Shown here one piece after another: positions 8,715 through 64,000 of a stretch of 64,000 nt of DNA. The notes under the pieces were generated by a model that worked only from the letters and a program-made list of their open reading frames with translations, was not told the origin of the DNA and searched no databases. Source of the DNA: Cystobacter fuscus (lineage in GTDB: Bacteria > Myxococcota > Myxococcia > Myxococcales > Myxococcaceae). How positions within the stretch are numbered: position 1 is the first letter of the stretch; every line of letters starts with the position of its first letter. Position numbers and translations under genes: made by a program. Where the stretch lies: positions 11,346,001 through 11,410,000 of the forward strand of contig NZ_CP022098.1 of the NCBI RefSeq assembly GCF_002305875.1. Reading direction: 5' to 3'.

Positions 8715-10139
8715 ATGAACATTCATTTCAAGGGGATGTGCAGCCTGTCTATGGCCTTGGGTCTGGCGTTTTCCGCCATCCCCGCCACGGAGGCCCGGGC
8801 CGCCGGGGTCACCGACTACAACCTCACGGGGTTTTCCGCTGGCAACACCGGTGGAGGGGAGATCAGCGAGTCGGACACCGCCCGCTATAAGAAGGTCTAC
8901 ACCGCGACGGAGCTCGCCCAGGCCTTGAAGAAGGGCTCGGGCGTCAAGGTCGTGGAGATCATGAATGATCTCAACCTGGGCTGGAACGAGCTTCCCGCCG
9001 CGGCCAAGGTCTCTCCCTTCTCCGCCCACAATTCGGCGCTGACCCATCCCGTGCTCCTCCAGACGGGGGTCAGCAAGATCAACGTGGACAGCTTCAGCGG
9101 GCTGACCATCTTCTCCGCCAACGGCGCCAGGCTCAAGCACGTGGCCATCACGATCAAGCGCAGCTCGAACGTGATCATCCGGAACCTGGAGTTCGATGAG
9201 CTGTGGGAGTGGGACGAGAAGACCAAGGGCGACTACGACTCCAACGACTGGGATTACCTGACGCTGGAGGAGAGCAGCAAGGTCTGGATCGACCACTGCA
9301 CCTTCAACAAGGCCTACGATGGCCTCGTCGACTCGAAGAAGGGCACCTCGGGCGTGACCATCTCCTGGTCCACGTTCAAGGGGGATGACGGCAGCGCGAC
9401 CAGCTTCGTGGCCAGGCAGTTCGATGCGCTCGAGGCCAACAAGTCCGCCTACCCGATGTACAACTACCTGCGCGGCAGCTCGGTGGGTCTGAGCAGGCAG
9501 GACATCACCGCGATCGCGGGCTCGCAGAAGAAGGGCCACCTGGTCGGCTCGACGGAATTCGCCTCGGACAACCCGAACCTCTCCATCACGTTGCATCACA
9601 ACTACTACAAGGACATCCAGGATCGCATGCCCCGCCTGCGGGGCGGCAACGCGCACGCCTACAACATCGTCATGGACAGCGCGGGAGCCTGGGCCGCCAA
9701 GAACAAGATCACCTCGGCCATGGCCACCGCCATCTCCTCCAAGGGCTACCACTTCACCGTGACGAGCAACGGTGCGATCTCCACCGAGAGCGGCGCCGTC
9801 CTGGTCGAGAAGTCGCACATCATCGACATCCAGTACCCGGTGCGCAACAACCAGACGGATCCCGAGGATGCAAGCTATACGGGGAAGATCCGCGCCGTCG
9901 ACACGATCGACTCCCTGAATGGGGTGGTCTTCCGGGGAAACAGCGACTCCTCCGGCAGCTCGCTCGGCCCGGTGCCCGCTGACGTGAAGGCCTTCTCCTG
10001 GAATGGCTTCTCCACCCTGCCCTACAGCTATACGCCGGAGGATCCGTCGACCCTCAAGAGCCGGCTGACGGCCGCCGATGGAGCGGGCGCTGGGAAGCTC
10101 ACCTGGGCGAAGAGCCAGTGGCTGAAGACCAGCTACTGA
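8715..10139 (+). CDS. Secreted pectate lyase, PL1 family
   Basis: Extracellular lyase that cleaves polygalacturonate by beta-elimination, usually calcium dependent. The protein has 474 residues with a signal peptide of about 30 (MALGLAFSAIPATEARAA). The right-handed parallel beta-helix family motifs are present: SSNVIIRNLEF, the canonical VWIDHCTFNKAYDGLVD near residue 191, and DRMPRLRGGNAHAYN near 305 with the catalytic Arg. The start at 8715 follows a GGGAAGGG stretch; the frame is open for ten more codons upstream but those do not look like signal sequence. The gene stands between the GH6 and GH8 genes as part of a plant-polysaccharide cluster. Confidence 0.95.
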   Translation: MNIHFKGMCSLSMALGLAFSAIPATEARAAGVTDYNLTGFSAGNTGGGEISESDTARYKKVYTATELAQALKKGSGVKVVEIMNDLNLGWNELPAAAKVSPFSAHNSALTHPVLLQTGVSKINVDSFSGLTIFSANGARLKHVAITIKRSSNVIIRNLEFDELWEWDEKTKGDYDSNDWDYLTLEESSKVWIDHCTFNKAYDGLVDSKKGTSGVTISWSTFKGDDGSATSFVARQFDALEANKSAYPMYNYLRGSSVGLSRQDITAIAGSQKKGHLVGSTEFASDNPNLSITLHHNYYKDIQDRMPRLRGGNAHAYNIVMDSAGAWAAKNKITSAMATAISSKGYHFTVTSNGAISTESGAVLVEKSHIIDIQYPVRNNQTDPEDASYTGKIRAVDTIDSLNGVVFRGNSDSSGSSLGPVPADVKAFSWNGFSTLPYSYTPEDPSTLKSRLTAADGAGAGKLTWAKSQWLKTSY

Positions 10140-58612: not shown

Positions 58613-60322
58613 TCAGCGCACACCGGGATTGGTGAGCTGGCCGACGTCCTCGTCCAGGACCTCGAAGGCGGCCACCTTGTCGCGCGGGGGACGGAGCAGG
58701 CGCTCGCCCAGGGGGACCACGTCGAAGCGGGCGCCGGTGACGGCGAGCGTCTTGCCGGTGACGAGCAGCTGGCCGGACTCGGCGGAGCCGGCGAGCCAGG
58801 TGGCCACGTTGACGCCCTCGCCCACCGCGCACAGCGAGGGGCGCGAGTCGGGGCCCACCATGCCCACCAGTACCTTGGCGGTGTTGACGCCGATGCGCAG
58901 CGAGCACCGCTCGTCCGCGGGGCGGCGCGCCATGTGGCGATCCCAGTCGGAGCGCAGGGCAAGCGCGGCACGCACCGCGTGCACGGCGTCATCCGGCCGG
59001 GTCTGCAGGGCCCCGAAGATGGCGCGCATCGAGTCGCCGAGCAGACCCTCCAGGGCGCCCTCGAAGCTGAAGACGAGACCTCCCAGCCGCGAATGGAAGT
59101 CGTTGAGCAGCACCGAGGCACGCGCGGGCCCCAGCCGGGCGCTCAGCGTGCTGAAGCTCGCGAGCTCCACGTGGACGATGCTCACGGTGCGCTCCTCCAG
59201 ACCCTGGAGCCGGGAGCCCGAGCGCAGGGCCTCGGTGGCGCGCCGCTCGGCCACGTCGGGGGCGTGGAAGCGCTCCAGGTGGTGGCGCAGCGGAGGGCTG
59301 GAACTGGACGCTGGGGGCGCGGAGAACTTCTGGATGCCGGTGGACACCAGGTGCGCCACGGCGGTGCAGGCGTCGAGCATCACCTCCAGCTCCGTGTCGC
59401 TGCGCGCCGAGGTGTTGATGTAGAGCACGCCCGCGAACGTGGGCTCGTTGCCCAGGGGGATGCAGAGCACCCGGTCCACGCCGTAGAGGATGACGCTCTC
59501 GCGGCTGGCGAAGCGGCGGTCGTCGCGCACGTCTCCCACCAGCAGGGCGCGGCCCTGGCGCAGCGCCTCGTCGATGATGGCGTCCGAGACGGGCACCTCG
59601 CCCTGGGACAGCTTGCCCCGGTGGCGCACGGAGGCGGGCACCAGCACCCCCGTGGGGTGGCGCAGGAGCACCACGGCGGTGGTGGCGTCGATGCGCTGGA
59701 GCAACCGGTCCATCGTGGACTCGAGGAAGGACGTCAGGTTCGTGGCGGTGGCGAGCGTCTCCGCGGTGCGGAAGAGCAGGAAGAGCGTCTCGGCGAATCC
59801 CCGCTGGGGCTGGGGCGCCGCGGTGGGCGGCGCCGGCGCGATGGGCGCCGCGGCCATGGGAGGGGACGAGTCGCCCCAGGGCGTGGAGATGTTGTCGAGC
59901 GCCCGCAGCAGATCCACGTCCTTGATGTTCTTGGCGAGCAGGACGGAGGGGCCCACGTCGTCGCCGTGGCCGAAGCGGCGCACGCCTCCGGCGCCCAGGT
60001 CCACCATCTCCGTGGCGGCGTTCTCCGACTGCTGCGCCTGGCGCACCGACACGGAGTTCTCCCCCAGGGAGATGGTGTCGCCGGGGCGCAGGTCGGCGCT
60101 GCCCTGGAAGAGGGTGCCGTTGAGGCGGCTGCCGTTGCGGCTGCCCAGGTCCTCCACGCGCAGGTGGTCGCCCTCCAGCACGAGCCGGGCGTGCCGCCGC
60201 GACACGAGATCGCCGCCCAGGACGATGTCGTTCTCATCCGCGCGGCCGAGGTAGGTGACGCCCTCGGGCAATTCGTAGGAGGTATCGAAGTAACCCGGGC
60301 CGTTGATGATGATCTGCCACAT
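58613..60322 (-). CDS. FHA-GAF-adenylate/guanylate cyclase-like protein
   Basis: A 569-residue signalling protein. FHA domain 1-95 (GRADENDIVLGGDLVSRRHARL, LGSRNGSRLNG; phosphothreonine binding). GAF domain about 185-345 (ATTAVVLLRHPTG, RALLVGDVRDDRRF, CIPLGNEP). Class III cyclase domain about 390-560 (VSIVHVELASFSTLSARLG, LLGDSMRAIFGA, LRIGVNTAKVLVGMVG, GEGVNVATWLA). The first metal-binding Asp is replaced by Glu in HVELASFS, while the second (GDSM) is kept, so activity is uncertain. FHA and a neighbouring Ser/Thr kinase downstream suggest phospho-dependent control. It starts 21 bases after the Rieske gene stop. Confidence 0.9.
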   Translation of the reverse strand: MWQIIINGPGYFDTSYELPEGVTYLGRADENDIVLGGDLVSRRHARLVLEGDHLRVEDLGSRNGSRLNGTLFQGSADLRPGDTISLGENSVSVRQAQQSENAATEMVDLGAGGVRRFGHGDDVGPSVLLAKNIKDVDLLRALDNISTPWGDSSPPMAAAPIAPAPPTAAPQPQRGFAETLFLLFRTAETLATATNLTSFLESTMDRLLQRIDATTAVVLLRHPTGVLVPASVRHRGKLSQGEVPVSDAIIDEALRQGRALLVGDVRDDRRFASRESVILYGVDRVLCIPLGNEPTFAGVLYINTSARSDTELEVMLDACTAVAHLVSTGIQKFSAPPASSSSPPLRHHLERFHAPDVAERRATEALRSGSRLQGLEERTVSIVHVELASFSTLSARLGPARASVLLNDFHSRLGGLVFSFEGALEGLLGDSMRAIFGALQTRPDDAVHAVRAALALRSDWDRHMARRPADERCSLRIGVNTAKVLVGMVGPDSRPSLCAVGEGVNVATWLAGSAESGQLLVTGKTLAVTGARFDVVPLGERLLRPPRDKVAAFEVLDEDVGQLTNPGVR

Positions 60323-60343: not shown

Positions 60344-60835
60344 TCAGCGCGCCCGGGAGATCCACACCGACTCGCCCACCCGGGCCGTCGCGAAGGTCTT
60401 CAGGGGACGGGTGGCGGGACCGCGCAGCACCCGGCCGTCCTCCCCGAAGCGCGAGCCGTGGCACGGACACTCGAGGAGCGACTCGCCGGGCTTGTAGGCC
60501 ACCAGACAGTCCCCATGGGAGCAGATGTGCCAGACAGTGACGAAGCAGCCCGACGCGGTGTGAATCACCACCACGTCGAGCAGCGCCTCGGGCACCCGCA
60601 CCACCACCGAGCCCCCCGGCTCGCGCAATTCCGGGTGGTCGGCGAGCCGCACCTCCACCCAGCCCTCGGCGGCGGAGCCGGGCGTGACGCCACACGCCAC
60701 GGCGTCGGAGTCGCCCTCCCCCTCCCGCGGGCCACACCCGGCGCACAGGGCCGCCAGGGCACAGGTTCCCTGGACGAGCGAGCCCAGCACGCGCCGGCGG
60801 GGGAGCGCCGTGGGAGGAGGGAGCGGTCGCGTCAT
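60344..60835 (-). CDS. Rieske [2Fe-2S] lipoprotein
   Basis: A 163-residue exported Rieske protein. The signal PRRRVLGSLVQGTCALAALCAGC has an RRR start that may use the Tat route and ends in a Cys after CAG, possibly lipidated. The cluster motif is CSHGDC (Cys-x-His) and CPCHGSRF (Cys-x-x-His), both intact, with a GPATRPLKTF tail. It is not fused to a cytochrome gene. The ATG overlaps the stop of the lipoprotein gene before it (ATGA), which places it in the riboswitch-controlled operon. Electron-transfer partners are unknown. Confidence 0.92.
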   Translation of the reverse strand: MTRPLPPPTALPRRRVLGSLVQGTCALAALCAGCGPREGEGDSDAVACGVTPGSAAEGWVEVRLADHPELREPGGSVVVRVPEALLDVVVIHTASGCFVTVWHICSHGDCLVAYKPGESLLECPCHGSRFGEDGRVLRGPATRPLKTFATARVGESVWISRAR

Positions 60836-61530
60836 GGCGTCTGGCAGAGAGCGTAGCCGTTCACCACGGCGACCGCGTCCAGGTCGAACCCCGAGGAGGG
60901 GGAGCCATTGGGGTTGTTCCCCGCGTCGCGCACGCGGACGAAGCGGGCCCGGGGCACCCCCAGGGTGGCGAGGTCGAAGCCATCACCCCCCGCCACCGAG
61001 GGATCCGTGGCACTCACGCCATTGGTCGGCGAGGAGTACACGGGCTTGATGCCCGCGCAACCGGGATACCCTCCCGCCGCGTCCGTGGAGGCGCAGGGGA
61101 ACTCGTGCCACGTCTGGCCATCCTCGCTCACCGCGACGATGCCCCGCTCCACGAAGGGACCGATGGGGCTGTTGAAGGCGTTCTCGAAGACGAGCAGGTC
61201 CACGCCAGGACCGTCCACCACGCCGATGTCGGTGAACTCGAGGACGATTTCCCCCCCGCGACCCAGGGAGAGGACATCCAGCGAGCCCGAGCTCGCCCCC
61301 TCTCCATGGGGAGGCCCGAGCACGATGCCGGGGAAGGTATCCTGACCAAAGCCCGCGTTCGGGCCGAACGAGTAGGACGCCACCCGATCGGCGAAGGGCT
61401 GGGGCTGCGCCGGGCACGCCGCGAGAGTCTGGGGCTCGTCCTGGAGGGACGGCTCCCCACAGCCCGCGGCGAGCACGGGAAGGAGGAGCCAGGTGCCCCT
61501 GGACATGCGGGCAACGAGCGAGCGACTCAC
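60832..61530 (-). CDS. Surface lipoprotein of the cobalamin-riboswitch operon
   Basis: A 232-residue lipoprotein (LLLPVLAAGCG lipobox). The mature part is a beta-rich domain with LSLGRGGEIVLEFTDIGVVDGPG, DLLVFENAFNSPIG, VAVSEDGQTWHEFPC and ARFVRVRDAGNNPN, a jelly-roll-like pattern related to proteins often labelled cell surface protein. I believe similar proteins occur near TonB-receptor or cobalamin genes in other bacteria, but that is from memory and unverified. Both ends overlap their neighbours by 4 bases (ATGA), so the three genes are translationally coupled. Confidence 0.8.
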   Translation of the reverse strand: MSRSLVARMSRGTWLLLPVLAAGCGEPSLQDEPQTLAACPAQPQPFADRVASYSFGPNAGFGQDTFPGIVLGPPHGEGASSGSLDVLSLGRGGEIVLEFTDIGVVDGPGVDLLVFENAFNSPIGPFVERGIVAVSEDGQTWHEFPCASTDAAGGYPGCAGIKPVYSSPTNGVSATDPSVAGGDGFDLATLGVPRARFVRVRDAGNNPNGSPSSGFDLDAVAVVNGYALCQTP

Positions 61531-62855
61531 GGCGTCCCCACGTGGAGACGCACGAGCCGGCGGCCGTTCTTGTCCTGCACGCCGACGAGCAGGTCCTCGG
61601 CCAGGGGAGCCATCGTCACCACCTTGGTGCAGGTGTTGGCCTGGGTGAGCACCTGCTGGAGCTGCCCCACGGTGACGCCCAGCCCATCCTGCGTGGGGGT
61701 CAGCGCGATGCGAGCGACGTCGCGGGTGTTCGTGAAGTCGGCGGAGCCGGAGCTGCGCTTGAGCGCCACTCCCGCCCCGAAGCCAGCGGCATCACGCAGG
61801 TCGAGCCCCGAGTAGACCTCGGGCATGTTGGCGCCGGACAGGTCCAGGGTCGTCCCCGCCGTCAGGGCGGGCGTGTACGTGTCGGGGGACACCGCGCGCA
61901 GGGCATTGGTGGAGGCGTACTCGTTGTCCGGCGTGGGCGTGGAGTACGCATAGCCGAGGGCGACGATCTTGTTCGTCGCCAGCGCGGAGAAACCGCTGAA
62001 GCTCCCCGTGCTCGGGAACGTGGCCAGCTTCGACATCTGGAAGGGGGTGCTCTGCGTCTTCACGGCATAGACACCAAGGCCCGTGCCGCTCACGCCCTCC
62101 AGGCCCAACCCATTGATGAGGAAGGCTCCATCCAGACCCACGGCGGAGAAGTTGCCAGCCGCGGAGACGTACGTGGACGTGGTGGACGCCAGATCGTGGA
62201 TGGCCACCTTGCCGGAGAAGTCACCCAGGGTATAGCCCCCCATCAAGCGGACACCATCGTTGACGAGGTAGCCGTTGACATAGGCGGTCTGCGTCACATC
62301 GGCGGGGACGATGGGGTAGAGAGGCGTGGTGCTGGCCGCGACACTCGGCCAGGTGCCGAGCGCGTAGACACTGTCGTCCGAGTTCACACCGTACAGCGTG
62401 TACGAGCCCGCGGCACCCGCCACCGCCGTGATGGCGCCGATGCTCTCGGGCAGAGGGGCGGACTCGACGACGGTGAAGCCCGGCTGGAGTTGCAGGGTAC
62501 CGAGCTGCGCGTCATGCGGCAGATCCGCGCACGTGGTCCCCGCGTCCGTCCCCGCGTCCGGCTCGGGCTCCGTCCCCGCGTCCGTCCCCGCATCTGGCCC
62601 GGGCTCCGTCCCCGCGTCCGTCCCCGCGTCCGAACCGTTCCCGGGATTCGGAGGAGCGACGTCCTTCACCACGCAGGTGTCGGCCTCGCACACGTACTGC
62701 TTGCCCTCCGGCGGGGCGCCCTTGCTGTTCTGGCAGTCGAAGCGATCCACGCACTCCGGACCACTGCAACCCGTCACCATCCATCCGAACGCCACGGCCC
62801 CCACCGCCATCACGACCTGGCTCAGCGAGCGCGACTTCTTCATCTCCGTCATCAT
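61527..62855 (-). CDS. Lipoprotein with Asp-Ala-Gly repeats and beta-propeller-like domain
   Basis: A 442-residue lipoprotein: signal VVMAVGAVAFGWMVTGCSG (lipobox VTGC), a Cys-containing segment, a linker of DAGTDAGTEPxP repeats, and from about 110 a beta-rich region with blade-like repeats (ITAVAGAAGSYTLYGVN, YVNGYLVNDGVRLMGGY, GKVAIHDLASTTSTYVS, GLGVYAVKTQ, FSALATNKIVALGYAY). It is the first gene after the cobalamin riboswitch. The start at 62855 has AAGGAG about ten bases upstream; ATG codons at 62852 and 62843 are alternatives, and the longer frame to 62951 enters the leader. A B12-binding role, like that of the Bacteroides propeller BtuG, is inference. Confidence 0.8.
   Translation of the reverse strand: MMTEMKKSRSLSQVVMAVGAVAFGWMVTGCSGPECVDRFDCQNSKGAPPEGKQYVCEADTCVVKDVAPPNPGNGSDAGTDAGTEPGPDAGTDAGTEPEPDAGTDAGTTCADLPHDAQLGTLQLQPGFTVVESAPLPESIGAITAVAGAAGSYTLYGVNSDDSVYALGTWPSVAASTTPLYPIVPADVTQTAYVNGYLVNDGVRLMGGYTLGDFSGKVAIHDLASTTSTYVSAAGNFSAVGLDGAFLINGLGLEGVSGTGLGVYAVKTQSTPFQMSKLATFPSTGSFSGFSALATNKIVALGYAYSTPTPDNEYASTNALRAVSPDTYTPALTAGTTLDLSGANMPEVYSGLDLRDAAGFGAGVALKRSSGSADFTNTRDVARIALTPTQDGLGVTVGQLQQVLTQANTCTKVVTMAPLAEDLLVGVQDKNGRRLVRLHVGTP
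62536..62631. repeat. Tandem repeats encoding DAGTDAGTEPxP
   Basis: Copies of a GTCCCCGCGTCC dodecamer with a GGCTCGGGCTCC-type spacer, period 36 bases, about 2.7 units. They encode the flexible lipoprotein linker and are in frame. Confidence 0.8.
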
Positions 62856-62992
62856 CCGCGTCCTGCTCCTTGCCCCCTCGGGCACAACGGCTTCACGACG
62901 GGAGTGGATGCGAAATGAGCGCTCGGGCGCGGCCCGTGAGAGGACGCACACGAGAACTCATCCGCGCCCCCCCTCGGAAGCATCGGTATGGT

Positions 62993-63010
62993 CCGTGCCC
63001 ACTGGCACGG
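62993..63010 (-). promoter_or_regulatory. Hairpin just after the riboswitch aptamer
   Basis: CCGTGCC / GGCACGG form a perfect 7-bp stem with a 4-base loop, seven bases after the aptamer end. It has no U-run, so it may be part of a non-terminator expression platform; the start codon lies about 140 bases further on. Confidence 0.4.
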
Positions 63011-63016
63011 GTCCCT

Positions 63017-63240
63017 GGCAGGTCTTCGGACTCACGGGCATGGGCGGCTCTCGACAGAGCCCCCCTTCCTACCGGCCGTCGCTTCCCAGCCCTCGCCGGA
63101 GGGCCAGTGCCTTCTGACAGCGTTCGTTCCCGTTCACCGCTGCGGGGCAGTCCCGGAGTCGCACCGGATTCCCTCAAGCCTCCACCACCCGGTGGAAGAA
63201 CCAAGGACGGCAGCGGGGATAGGGTCGCGGAGGCACCTTT
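63017..63240 (-). promoter_or_regulatory. Cobalamin (adenosylcobalamin) riboswitch
   Basis: Reading the minus strand, the conserved elements appear in the right order: AAAGGTGCC at the 5' side, then GGGAATCCGGTGCGACTCCG, GGACTGCCCCGCAGCGGT, GGCACTGG, CTGGGAAG, and the B12-box GAGTCCGAAGACCTGCC at 63033-63017. All are characteristic of the cobalamin aptamer (Rfam RF00174). The element sits in the 449-base gap between the partial propeller gene and the lipoprotein operon, so it should repress that operon when cobalamin is plentiful. The expression platform is not obvious; a short hairpin follows. A TTGACA at 63245-63240 overlaps its 5' edge, but no matching -10 outside the aptamer was identified. 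Confidence 0.95.
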
Positions 63241-63304: not shown

Positions 63305-64000
63305 TCACGGTAGAGCGATGACATCACTGACGAGCGAGGGGCCCGAGCTTCGGGGACAGATGGCCAATTCCTTGCGCGCCACGAGCGTGTCGCCCACGAC
63401 CTCGATGACGAAGACGCGACCCGCGTTGTTGTCGCCCACGTAGGCCCGAGAGCCCACCACGGCGAAGCGTCCCGCCGAGGGCAGCGGACACGACGTCGCT
63501 TCCGGACAACCCAGCGCGAGCGAGTCCAGCACGCGGCCCTCCGCGCCGAGCAGCACCAGGCCCGTGCCCCGGACGTCCGTGAGGTTGAAGTCGACGTCAT
63601 AGGTGGCGGCGCCGCCACAGCTCACGAGCAGCCGTTCGCCCACGGGGAGCACCCAGAAGGGATTGAGACATGCCTCGCCCAGCGCGAGCAGCTCCACCGC
63701 GCGAGTGCCCGAATCGATCCGGGCGAGGAACCCGGGGCCTCCGGCGGAGTAGCTGCGCGCATCCAGGTTGCCCAGCGCGGCGTACACCCGGCCCTGGAGC
63801 GAGGTGATGCCCGCGGGCGCGGGGAGCGTGGTGCGGCCAGGGAAGGGGCGCAGGGCCTCGCCCGAGGGCAGCACGAAGGTGTCCGTGATGACGGGCGCGG
63901 TGGGCTCCGCCACCGAGACGCGCACCACCCGGCCTCCCGCGGACGCGTCCCCCTGGAGATTGCCGAGGAGCGTGACATACGCGTCCGGCCCCTCGAGCGT
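63305..64000 (-). CDS. Beta-propeller-like protein, N-terminus beyond window
   Basis: The last 231 residues of a gene whose 5' end lies past the right edge; the frame is open to base 64000 and reads TLEGPDAYVTLLGNLQGD there. The sequence shows recurring strand blocks of a YVTN/NHL-type propeller: GRVYAALGNLDARSY, FLARIDSGTRAVELLALG, RLLVSCGGAATYDVDFN, GLVLLGAEGRVLDSL, RAYVGDNNAGRVFVIEV. Repeated DNNAGRVFVIEV-like strands and GLVLLG are typical. It precedes the cobalamin riboswitch on the same strand. A role in surface binding of a vitamin or polymer is inference. Confidence 0.75.
   Translation of the reverse strand, partial: TLEGPDAYVTLLGNLQGDASAGGRVVRVSVAEPTAPVITDTFVLPSGEALRPFPGRTTLPAPAGITSLQGRVYAALGNLDARSYSAGGPGFLARIDSGTRAVELLALGEACLNPFWVLPVGERLLVSCGGAATYDVDFNLTDVRGTGLVLLGAEGRVLDSLALGCPEATSCPLPSAGRFAVVGSRAYVGDNNAGRVFVIEVVGDTLVARKELAICPRSSGPSLVSDVIALP

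Follow-up and report, generated by a model that had tools for sequence, protein, structure and literature searches.

The window analysed here, a 64,000-nucleotide stretch of the Cystobacter fuscus genome (contig NZ_CP022098.1, positions 11,346,001 to 11,410,000), carries on its minus strand a cobalamin riboswitch followed by three lipoprotein genes, here called PROP1, JELLY and RIESKE. The riboswitch aptamer, at 63000..63220 (minus), matches Rfam family RF00174 over the full model (positions 1-189 of 189) with 85.8 bits (E 9.8e-20), far over the gathering score of 31.5. An earlier reading of the DNA letters (the sequence-only reading) had placed it at 63240-63017; its presence and strand stand, but its ends are shifted by ~20 nt (63220-63000 by Rfam). 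It is one of three RF00174 matches in the 12.35 Mb genome, the second of which precedes a putative class I ribonucleotide reductase gene and the third a cobalt/cobalamin gene cluster. Gene starts and several gene names, including those of the ribonucleotide reductase, the cobalt genes and a transposase mentioned below, were assigned by eye. The 3' end of the aptamer is overlapped by a short hairpin, CCGTGCC-AGTG-GGCACGG (62993..63010, minus strand), which is paired in the predicted leader fold and is a possible candidate for a piece of the expression platform. The stability of the predicted leader fold is unremarkable (z -1.19, with 15 of 100 shuffles equally good).

The three genes behind the aptamer are coupled, as had been proposed from the sequence, through 4-nt stop/start overlaps at both junctions (GTGA between PROP1 and JELLY, ATGA between JELLY and RIESKE). 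PROP1 (61527..62855, minus; 442 amino acids (aa)) has an AGGAG at 62870-62866 ahead of its start at 62855, JELLY (60832..61530, minus; 232 aa) starts with GTG, and RIESKE (60344..60835, minus; 163 aa) starts with ATG. By eye, all three products have lipobox-like signal-peptide ends (VTGC, AAGC and CAGC, in gene order). Their descriptions as propeller-like, jelly-roll-like and Rieske proteins were borne out: the AlphaFold2 model of PROP1 (residues 106-442, 36-row alignment, pLDDT 95.2) has propellers among its structural matches, the AlphaFold model of JELLY (69-row alignment, pLDDT 96.2, pTM 0.92) is a beta-sandwich with discoidin/CBM32-type neighbours, and RIESKE carries a Rieske [2Fe-2S] domain that matches PF00355 with 42.4 bits over a cut-off of 20.3.

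The predicted fold of JELLY resembles most closely that of the BtuH proteins of Bacteroides. Among 350,542 PDB chains, the sole Foldseek match at E ≤ 0.001 was BtuG1 in the BtuB1G1 complex (4.1e-5). A second comparison with VIA-align, run over Foldseek's best 1000 with 50 rows listed, ranked BtuH2 first (7biz_B 313-593; Z 13.3, rmsd 3.2, 157 aligned, 18% identity) and BtuG1 residues 388-660 second (Z 12.8, rmsd 3.4, 159 aligned, 24% identity), followed by PAPP-A with Z 9.8 and then by sugar-binding modules at 8 to 9, with AlyQ also among the lower rows. According to the respective reports, BtuH2 holds B12 by its C-terminal domain and bears, in its authors' judgement, a modest resemblance to the alginate lyase AlyQ (PMC8941943), and BtuG1 carries a C-terminal fused BtuH domain of ~250 residues (PMC10404256). 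JELLY matched no Pfam family. Because it has no sequence-level match to BtuH, we call it BtuH-like by predicted fold and do not class it as BtuH, the comparison being one of overall fold. The statement that none of the three is a known B12 gene thus remains correct for sequence families (Pfam, NCBIfam), but by predicted fold JELLY is closest to BtuH.

JELLY also lies in the genomic setting of BtuH, in a B12 riboswitch locus with a BtuB-type receptor gene upstream. Besides the fold, the BtuH2 and BtuG1 BtuH domains (7BIZ and 8BLW, Bacteroides thetaiotaomicron) share with it, as far as they are described, the lipoprotein nature, the B12 riboswitch and the adjoining BtuB-type receptor gene, whereas the propeller partner is fused in BtuG1 and encoded by a separate gene beside JELLY (PMC10404256, PMC8941943). 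The JELLY domain, moreover, comprises ~195 residues with no PKD domains, whereas the BtuH2 and BtuG1 matches span 273-281 residues; and JELLY comes from Myxococcota and has a Rieske partner, whereas BtuH2 and BtuG1 come from Bacteroidetes.

Two other lipoprotein families were compared with JELLY. DUF4465/BtuJ proteins are described as B12-binding beta-sandwich lipoproteins in B12 loci, those of Myxococcota included (PMC13398666), so that both families consist of beta-sandwich lipoproteins encoded in B12 loci. Membership of JELLY in DUF4465 was rejected, with 0 of 69 members matching the Pfam model at E ≤ 0.01; DUF4465 chains are also absent from the 50 VIA-align rows listed, which excludes nothing. 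NF033170, the Leptospira LIC_13355 lipoprotein family, was matched by 62 of the 69 JELLY sequences at E ≤ 0.001 (best 1.6e-14), below the model's cut-off of 120 bits, the window's JELLY scoring 36.7. Work on LIC_13355 has dealt with its binding of laminin and plasminogen, in a report whose main text leaves B12 unmentioned (PMC11891782). The JELLY matches suggest, at the level of sequence similarity, that a B12-related function is worth considering for that family. Sequence routes from PROP1, JELLY and PROP0 (the gene upstream of the aptamer) to solved structures led only to unrelated chains, with best E values of 0.04 to 0.9.

The PROP0 gene ends 84 nt from the aptamer. Its 3' part occupies 63305..64000 (minus) and the rest lies beyond the window; the encoded lipoprotein of 522 aa is rich in Cys in its N-terminal part, which scores over the NF041328 cut-off, and rich in repeats in its C-terminal part. 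It is preceded, outside the window, on the same strand and with a 4-nt overlap, by a gene for a BtuB-like TonB receptor (L004 6871-8820, minus), in which PF07715 (Plug) and PF00593 (TonB-dependent barrel) are both over cut-off and which, among solved structures, is closest to those of BtuB (E 8e-24).

JELLY was present in 19 of 59 related genomes, C. fuscus counted, and the 18 other loci were compared. An RF00174 match precedes JELLY in 14 of these 18 and, in genome-wide Rfam searches, lies near JELLY and over cut-off in 15 of the 19 carriers including C. fuscus. In L020 and L040, which have no RF00174 match upstream of JELLY, the contigs stop within ~1.4 kb upstream of that gene; genome G041 has a sub-threshold match of 26.9 bits; and L029 has three tRNA genes (8883-9165) where most relatives carry the riboswitch ahead of PROP1. 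In L031, tRNA genes and the riboswitch stand side by side.

Gene order in these myxobacteria, to which the sequence-only reading had looked for linkage with B12 genes, does connect the operon with a BtuB-like receptor and, in some relatives, with BtuF/BtuC-like genes. A receptor homologue is found in 8 of the 18 loci, in five of which a further RF00174 match lies directly ahead of it (L029, L031, L035, L036, L038). In the same-genus loci L027 and L028 this additional match is absent, and L039 has a single riboswitch followed by one run of genes with the receptor after JELLY. BtuF-like and BtuC-like genes stand between PROP0 and PROP1 in L029, L031, L035 and L036; in NCBIfam the L031 pair scores best with BtuF and BtuC, and BtuF is the second-best model for the L035 BtuF-like protein. 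The fullest layout (L031, L035, L036) reads riboswitch, receptor, PROP0, BtuF-like, BtuC-like, riboswitch, PROP1, JELLY, RIESKE.

For a wider survey, genome contigs were scanned with the JELLY alignment and the best 80 of 260 matches were kept, giving 77 loci, mostly from Myxococcus, Corallococcus, Archangium and bins labelled Myxococcota or Deltaproteobacteria; counts are over this unthinned set, which includes near-duplicates (e.g. L081/L082 and L097/L110). An aptamer model, R1, trained on 21 aptamers from C. fuscus and relatives, matched 58 of the 77 loci at E ≤ 0.1, with 86 matches in total, all of them on the strand of JELLY, and every JELLY copy in those 58 loci has an R1 match at most 2 kb upstream. 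R1 is partly circular because some training contigs are shared with the 77 loci, and its matches were checked against Rfam: of 12 R1-positive loci, 9 passed RF00174 and L073, L078 and L118 failed. In the farther loci PROP1 is no longer recognised and JELLY still often lies behind a riboswitch. The receptor gene follows JELLY in the distant loci L106 and L119 and lies near it, with one gene between, in L107; a PROP0-like gene precedes JELLY in L099 and L117. JELLY is the constant member of the locus, through the choice of loci and through its link to the aptamer. Across the phylum, JELLY is matched at E ≤ 0.001 in 90 of 156 Myxococcota genomes, in some of them only weakly and over part of its length; a plasmid search for JELLY gave zero matches.

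Several further observations were made in this survey. At least two JELLY copies occur in 10 of the 77 loci (L046, L048, L049, L051, L053, L054, L056, L057, L068, L084), mostly as riboswitch-PROP1-JELLY units and nearly all in Corallococcus. In L074, L075, L080, L081 and L100, lipoprotein-like proteins upstream of JELLY share, by eye, a G-W-x-D-x-[WF]-G-G-S-type stretch; a Pfam scan of four of them returned no match. A 2.7 Mb genome of the same family has a partial, divergent JELLY match (G022:C1:61020-62262, E 3.8e-9) ~0.9 kb behind an RF00174 match.

The propellers are less distinctive. The PROP1 model is matched with similar strength by many propellers in both Foldseek and VIA-align. The B12-binding protein BtuK1 appears in the Foldseek rows at ranks 22, 44 and 50, which is not specific, and BtuG and BtuK chains are absent from the 50 VIA-align rows listed, which excludes nothing. 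PF16819, described as a propeller family named for B12 loci (PMC13398666), was not matched by PROP1 (E ≤ 1) or PROP0 (E ≤ 0.1), and the PROP1 and PROP0 profiles show no recognisable relation to each other (hhalign probability 0.9%). PROP1 shares with the Bacteroides surface propellers BtuG and BtuK the predicted propeller lipoprotein architecture and the position behind a B12 riboswitch, whereas unrelated propellers fit it equally well or better. In Bacteroides btuG is described as adjoining btuB (PMC6143338), and here PROP0 is the gene coupled to the receptor gene. The suggestion that these lipoproteins are distant analogues of BtuG survives as a link to the Bacteroides capture proteins, made by JELLY through its BtuH-like predicted fold, but not for the propeller, which matches many propellers about equally.

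We consider it probable that these genes form a B12-controlled accessory operon whose products would capture vitamin B12 (cobamides) at the cell surface, because of the riboswitch, the BtuH-fold protein and the B12-transporter-like neighbour genes of the relatives. When B12 is low, the riboswitch would let the operon be expressed; JELLY would bind the extracellular cobamide in the manner of BtuH; the propeller lipoproteins would hold it or hand it on, like BtuG and BtuK; and the TonB receptor would import it. The coupled PROP1-JELLY pair may correspond, in unfused form, to Bacteroides BtuG1, in which a propeller and a BtuH domain form one chain, and the Rieske protein, as the least certain member, might partner the captured cobamide in the envelope. 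The sequence-only reading had left the choice between B12 uptake and a B12-sparing function; we prefer uptake to sparing because a BtuB-like receptor and a lipoprotein adjoin the operon and some relatives add BtuF/BtuC-like genes and a second riboswitch.

Several results weigh against surface capture of B12. A search for terminator-like and promoter-like sites found none, and no second riboswitch was found ahead of the receptor in the C. fuscus genome. The JELLY profile retrieved no BtuH chain from the PDB sequences at E ≤ 10, and the rows for the PROP1 model lack a B12-specific match. The receptor's best NCBIfam model, TIGR01779 (TonB B12 receptor), scores 128.6 bits, below its cut-off of 599.7, and the BtuF- and BtuC-like proteins of the relatives all score under the curated NCBIfam cut-offs. 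In the wider survey, 19 of the 77 JELLY loci have neither an R1 nor an RF00174 match (0 of 19 in Rfam); 15 of them have more than 3 kb of upstream sequence and 4 have less than 1.4 kb. Nor are the JELLY-bearing related genomes enriched for the absence of the B12-synthesis gene CbiC. The idea that carriers are genomes without B12 synthesis is unsupported because non-carriers are without CbiC just as well (38 of 40, against 14 of the 19 carriers). CbiC is present in C. fuscus itself. Finally, the highest-identity BtuC match in this genome is a stretch away from the operon, beside a transposase-like gene (by eye), 80% identical to the C-terminal 30 residues of BtuC from a relative (L127, G000:C1:11434691-11434780); by its sequence it appears to be the relic of a lost B12 permease. 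The genome also has, at other places, a permease match of 44% and two binding-protein matches that are weaker; none of the three is clearly a BtuF or BtuC.

CbiC, the displaced 30-residue BtuC stretch, the receptor without a riboswitch and the Rieske gene that is broken in the same-genus relative L027 would all fit a decay of the system in this lineage, by which C. fuscus, a B12 maker, has lost BtuF and BtuC and kept leftovers of an uptake cluster. We regard this as unlikely, since all five C. fuscus genes are open and two same-genus relatives retain the receptor, PROP0, PROP1 and JELLY (97%, 95-96%, 68-75% and 88-92% identity to C. fuscus, respectively); such decay would in any case be compatible with B12 capture by the family as a whole.

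We give a small chance to the alternative that the fold of JELLY is merely the common discoidin/CBM32-type sandwich, with a sugar or something else as its ligand. BtuH itself is reported to resemble such folds, including AlyQ (PMC8941943). Many CBM32/discoidin chains reach Z 8 to 9 with the JELLY model, and one of the 69 JELLY members reaches E 0.009 with the F5/8 type C Pfam model, but BtuH2 and BtuG1 stand 3 Z units over the next match and 58 of the 77 loci carry B12 aptamers ahead of JELLY. That the operon serves B12 sparing, by encoding a B12-independent substitute for use once B12 runs out, is very improbable: another of the three genomic riboswitches precedes what by eye is a class I ribonucleotide reductase, a classic B12-sparing target, but none of the three proteins resembles a replacement for a B12 enzyme, the neighbouring genes are receptor- and transporter-like, and the predicted fold of JELLY is that of BtuH.

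Within the surface-capture reading, the part of the Rieske protein is the hardest to place. RIESKE has the cluster motifs C-x-H-x2-C ... C-x-C-H, which are intact in 32 of 34 distinct Rieske rows, the exceptions being a partial match (L071) and a gene on the opposite strand (L093). By sequence it is closest to b6f Rieske subunits, and its nearest solved relatives are b6f Rieske proteins; an assignment as a bc1/b6f subunit was rejected, the best curated NCBIfam model reaching 51.9 bits against a cut-off of 250. In 21 of the 77 loci the Rieske domain starts at most 400 nt from the end of the JELLY domain, and in L050 and L083 the distance is ~1.7 kb; such neighbours also occur in bins labelled only Myxococcota or Deltaproteobacteria (L070, L075, L080, L086). 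Among the 18 related loci, 11 have a Rieske gene, one (L027) has a broken copy, and none was detected in six (L020, L029, L030, L032, L039, L041). It is a frequent but dispensable partner of JELLY, and its function is a guess. The sequence-only reading had it reduce cobalt at the envelope, for which we found no evidence. A cluster with a bc1-type potential could feasibly exchange electrons with hydroxocobalamin, and hardly with cyano- or adenosylcobalamin. That the protein is a redox partner in the function of the operon is a tentative and rather doubtful proposal, as the least certain element. We think it unlikely that Myxococcota possess a surface B12-capture machine in which the lipid-anchored Rieske protein performs a redox step on the captured cobamide before receptor import, be it a gating by oxidation state or a removal of the upper ligand. 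To our knowledge, no B12 uptake system includes a redox step on the cobamide ahead of import, and no precedent for a Rieske protein in B12 uptake was found in the literature searched, which took in few subscription papers.

Downstream, a gene of FHA-GAF-cyclase type (by eye; 58613-60322, minus) starts 21 nt behind RIESKE. Because of this short distance, and because its relatives lie downstream in 10 of the 19 loci compared, it may belong to the operon transcript. Elsewhere in the window, RF02514 (5'_ureB_sRNA) is matched at 755-1039 on the plus strand with 92.6 bits (gathering score 40).

Lipoproteins that capture B12 at the surface in the manner of BtuG and BtuH have been described from Bacteroidetes (PMC6143338, PMC8941943), and BtuG was reported as exclusive to that phylum (PMC6143338). 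The same literature search gave no report of myxobacterial B12 surface lipoproteins and, among the matches listed, none of BtuH outside Bacteroidetes. The B12-riboswitch operon seen here, which most likely serves B12 capture at the surface, places a lipoprotein of predicted BtuH fold in a phylum other than the one from which such proteins have been described. If JELLY binds B12, the BtuH fold would be a wider solution that includes soil bacteria, and an unnamed family matched in 90 of 156 Myxococcota genomes would gain a testable function. By homology, the Leptospira LIC_13355 family, studied until now as a host-matrix binder, would gain an alternative candidate function. If its proposed part were true as well, a Rieske protein would be brought into B12 uptake.

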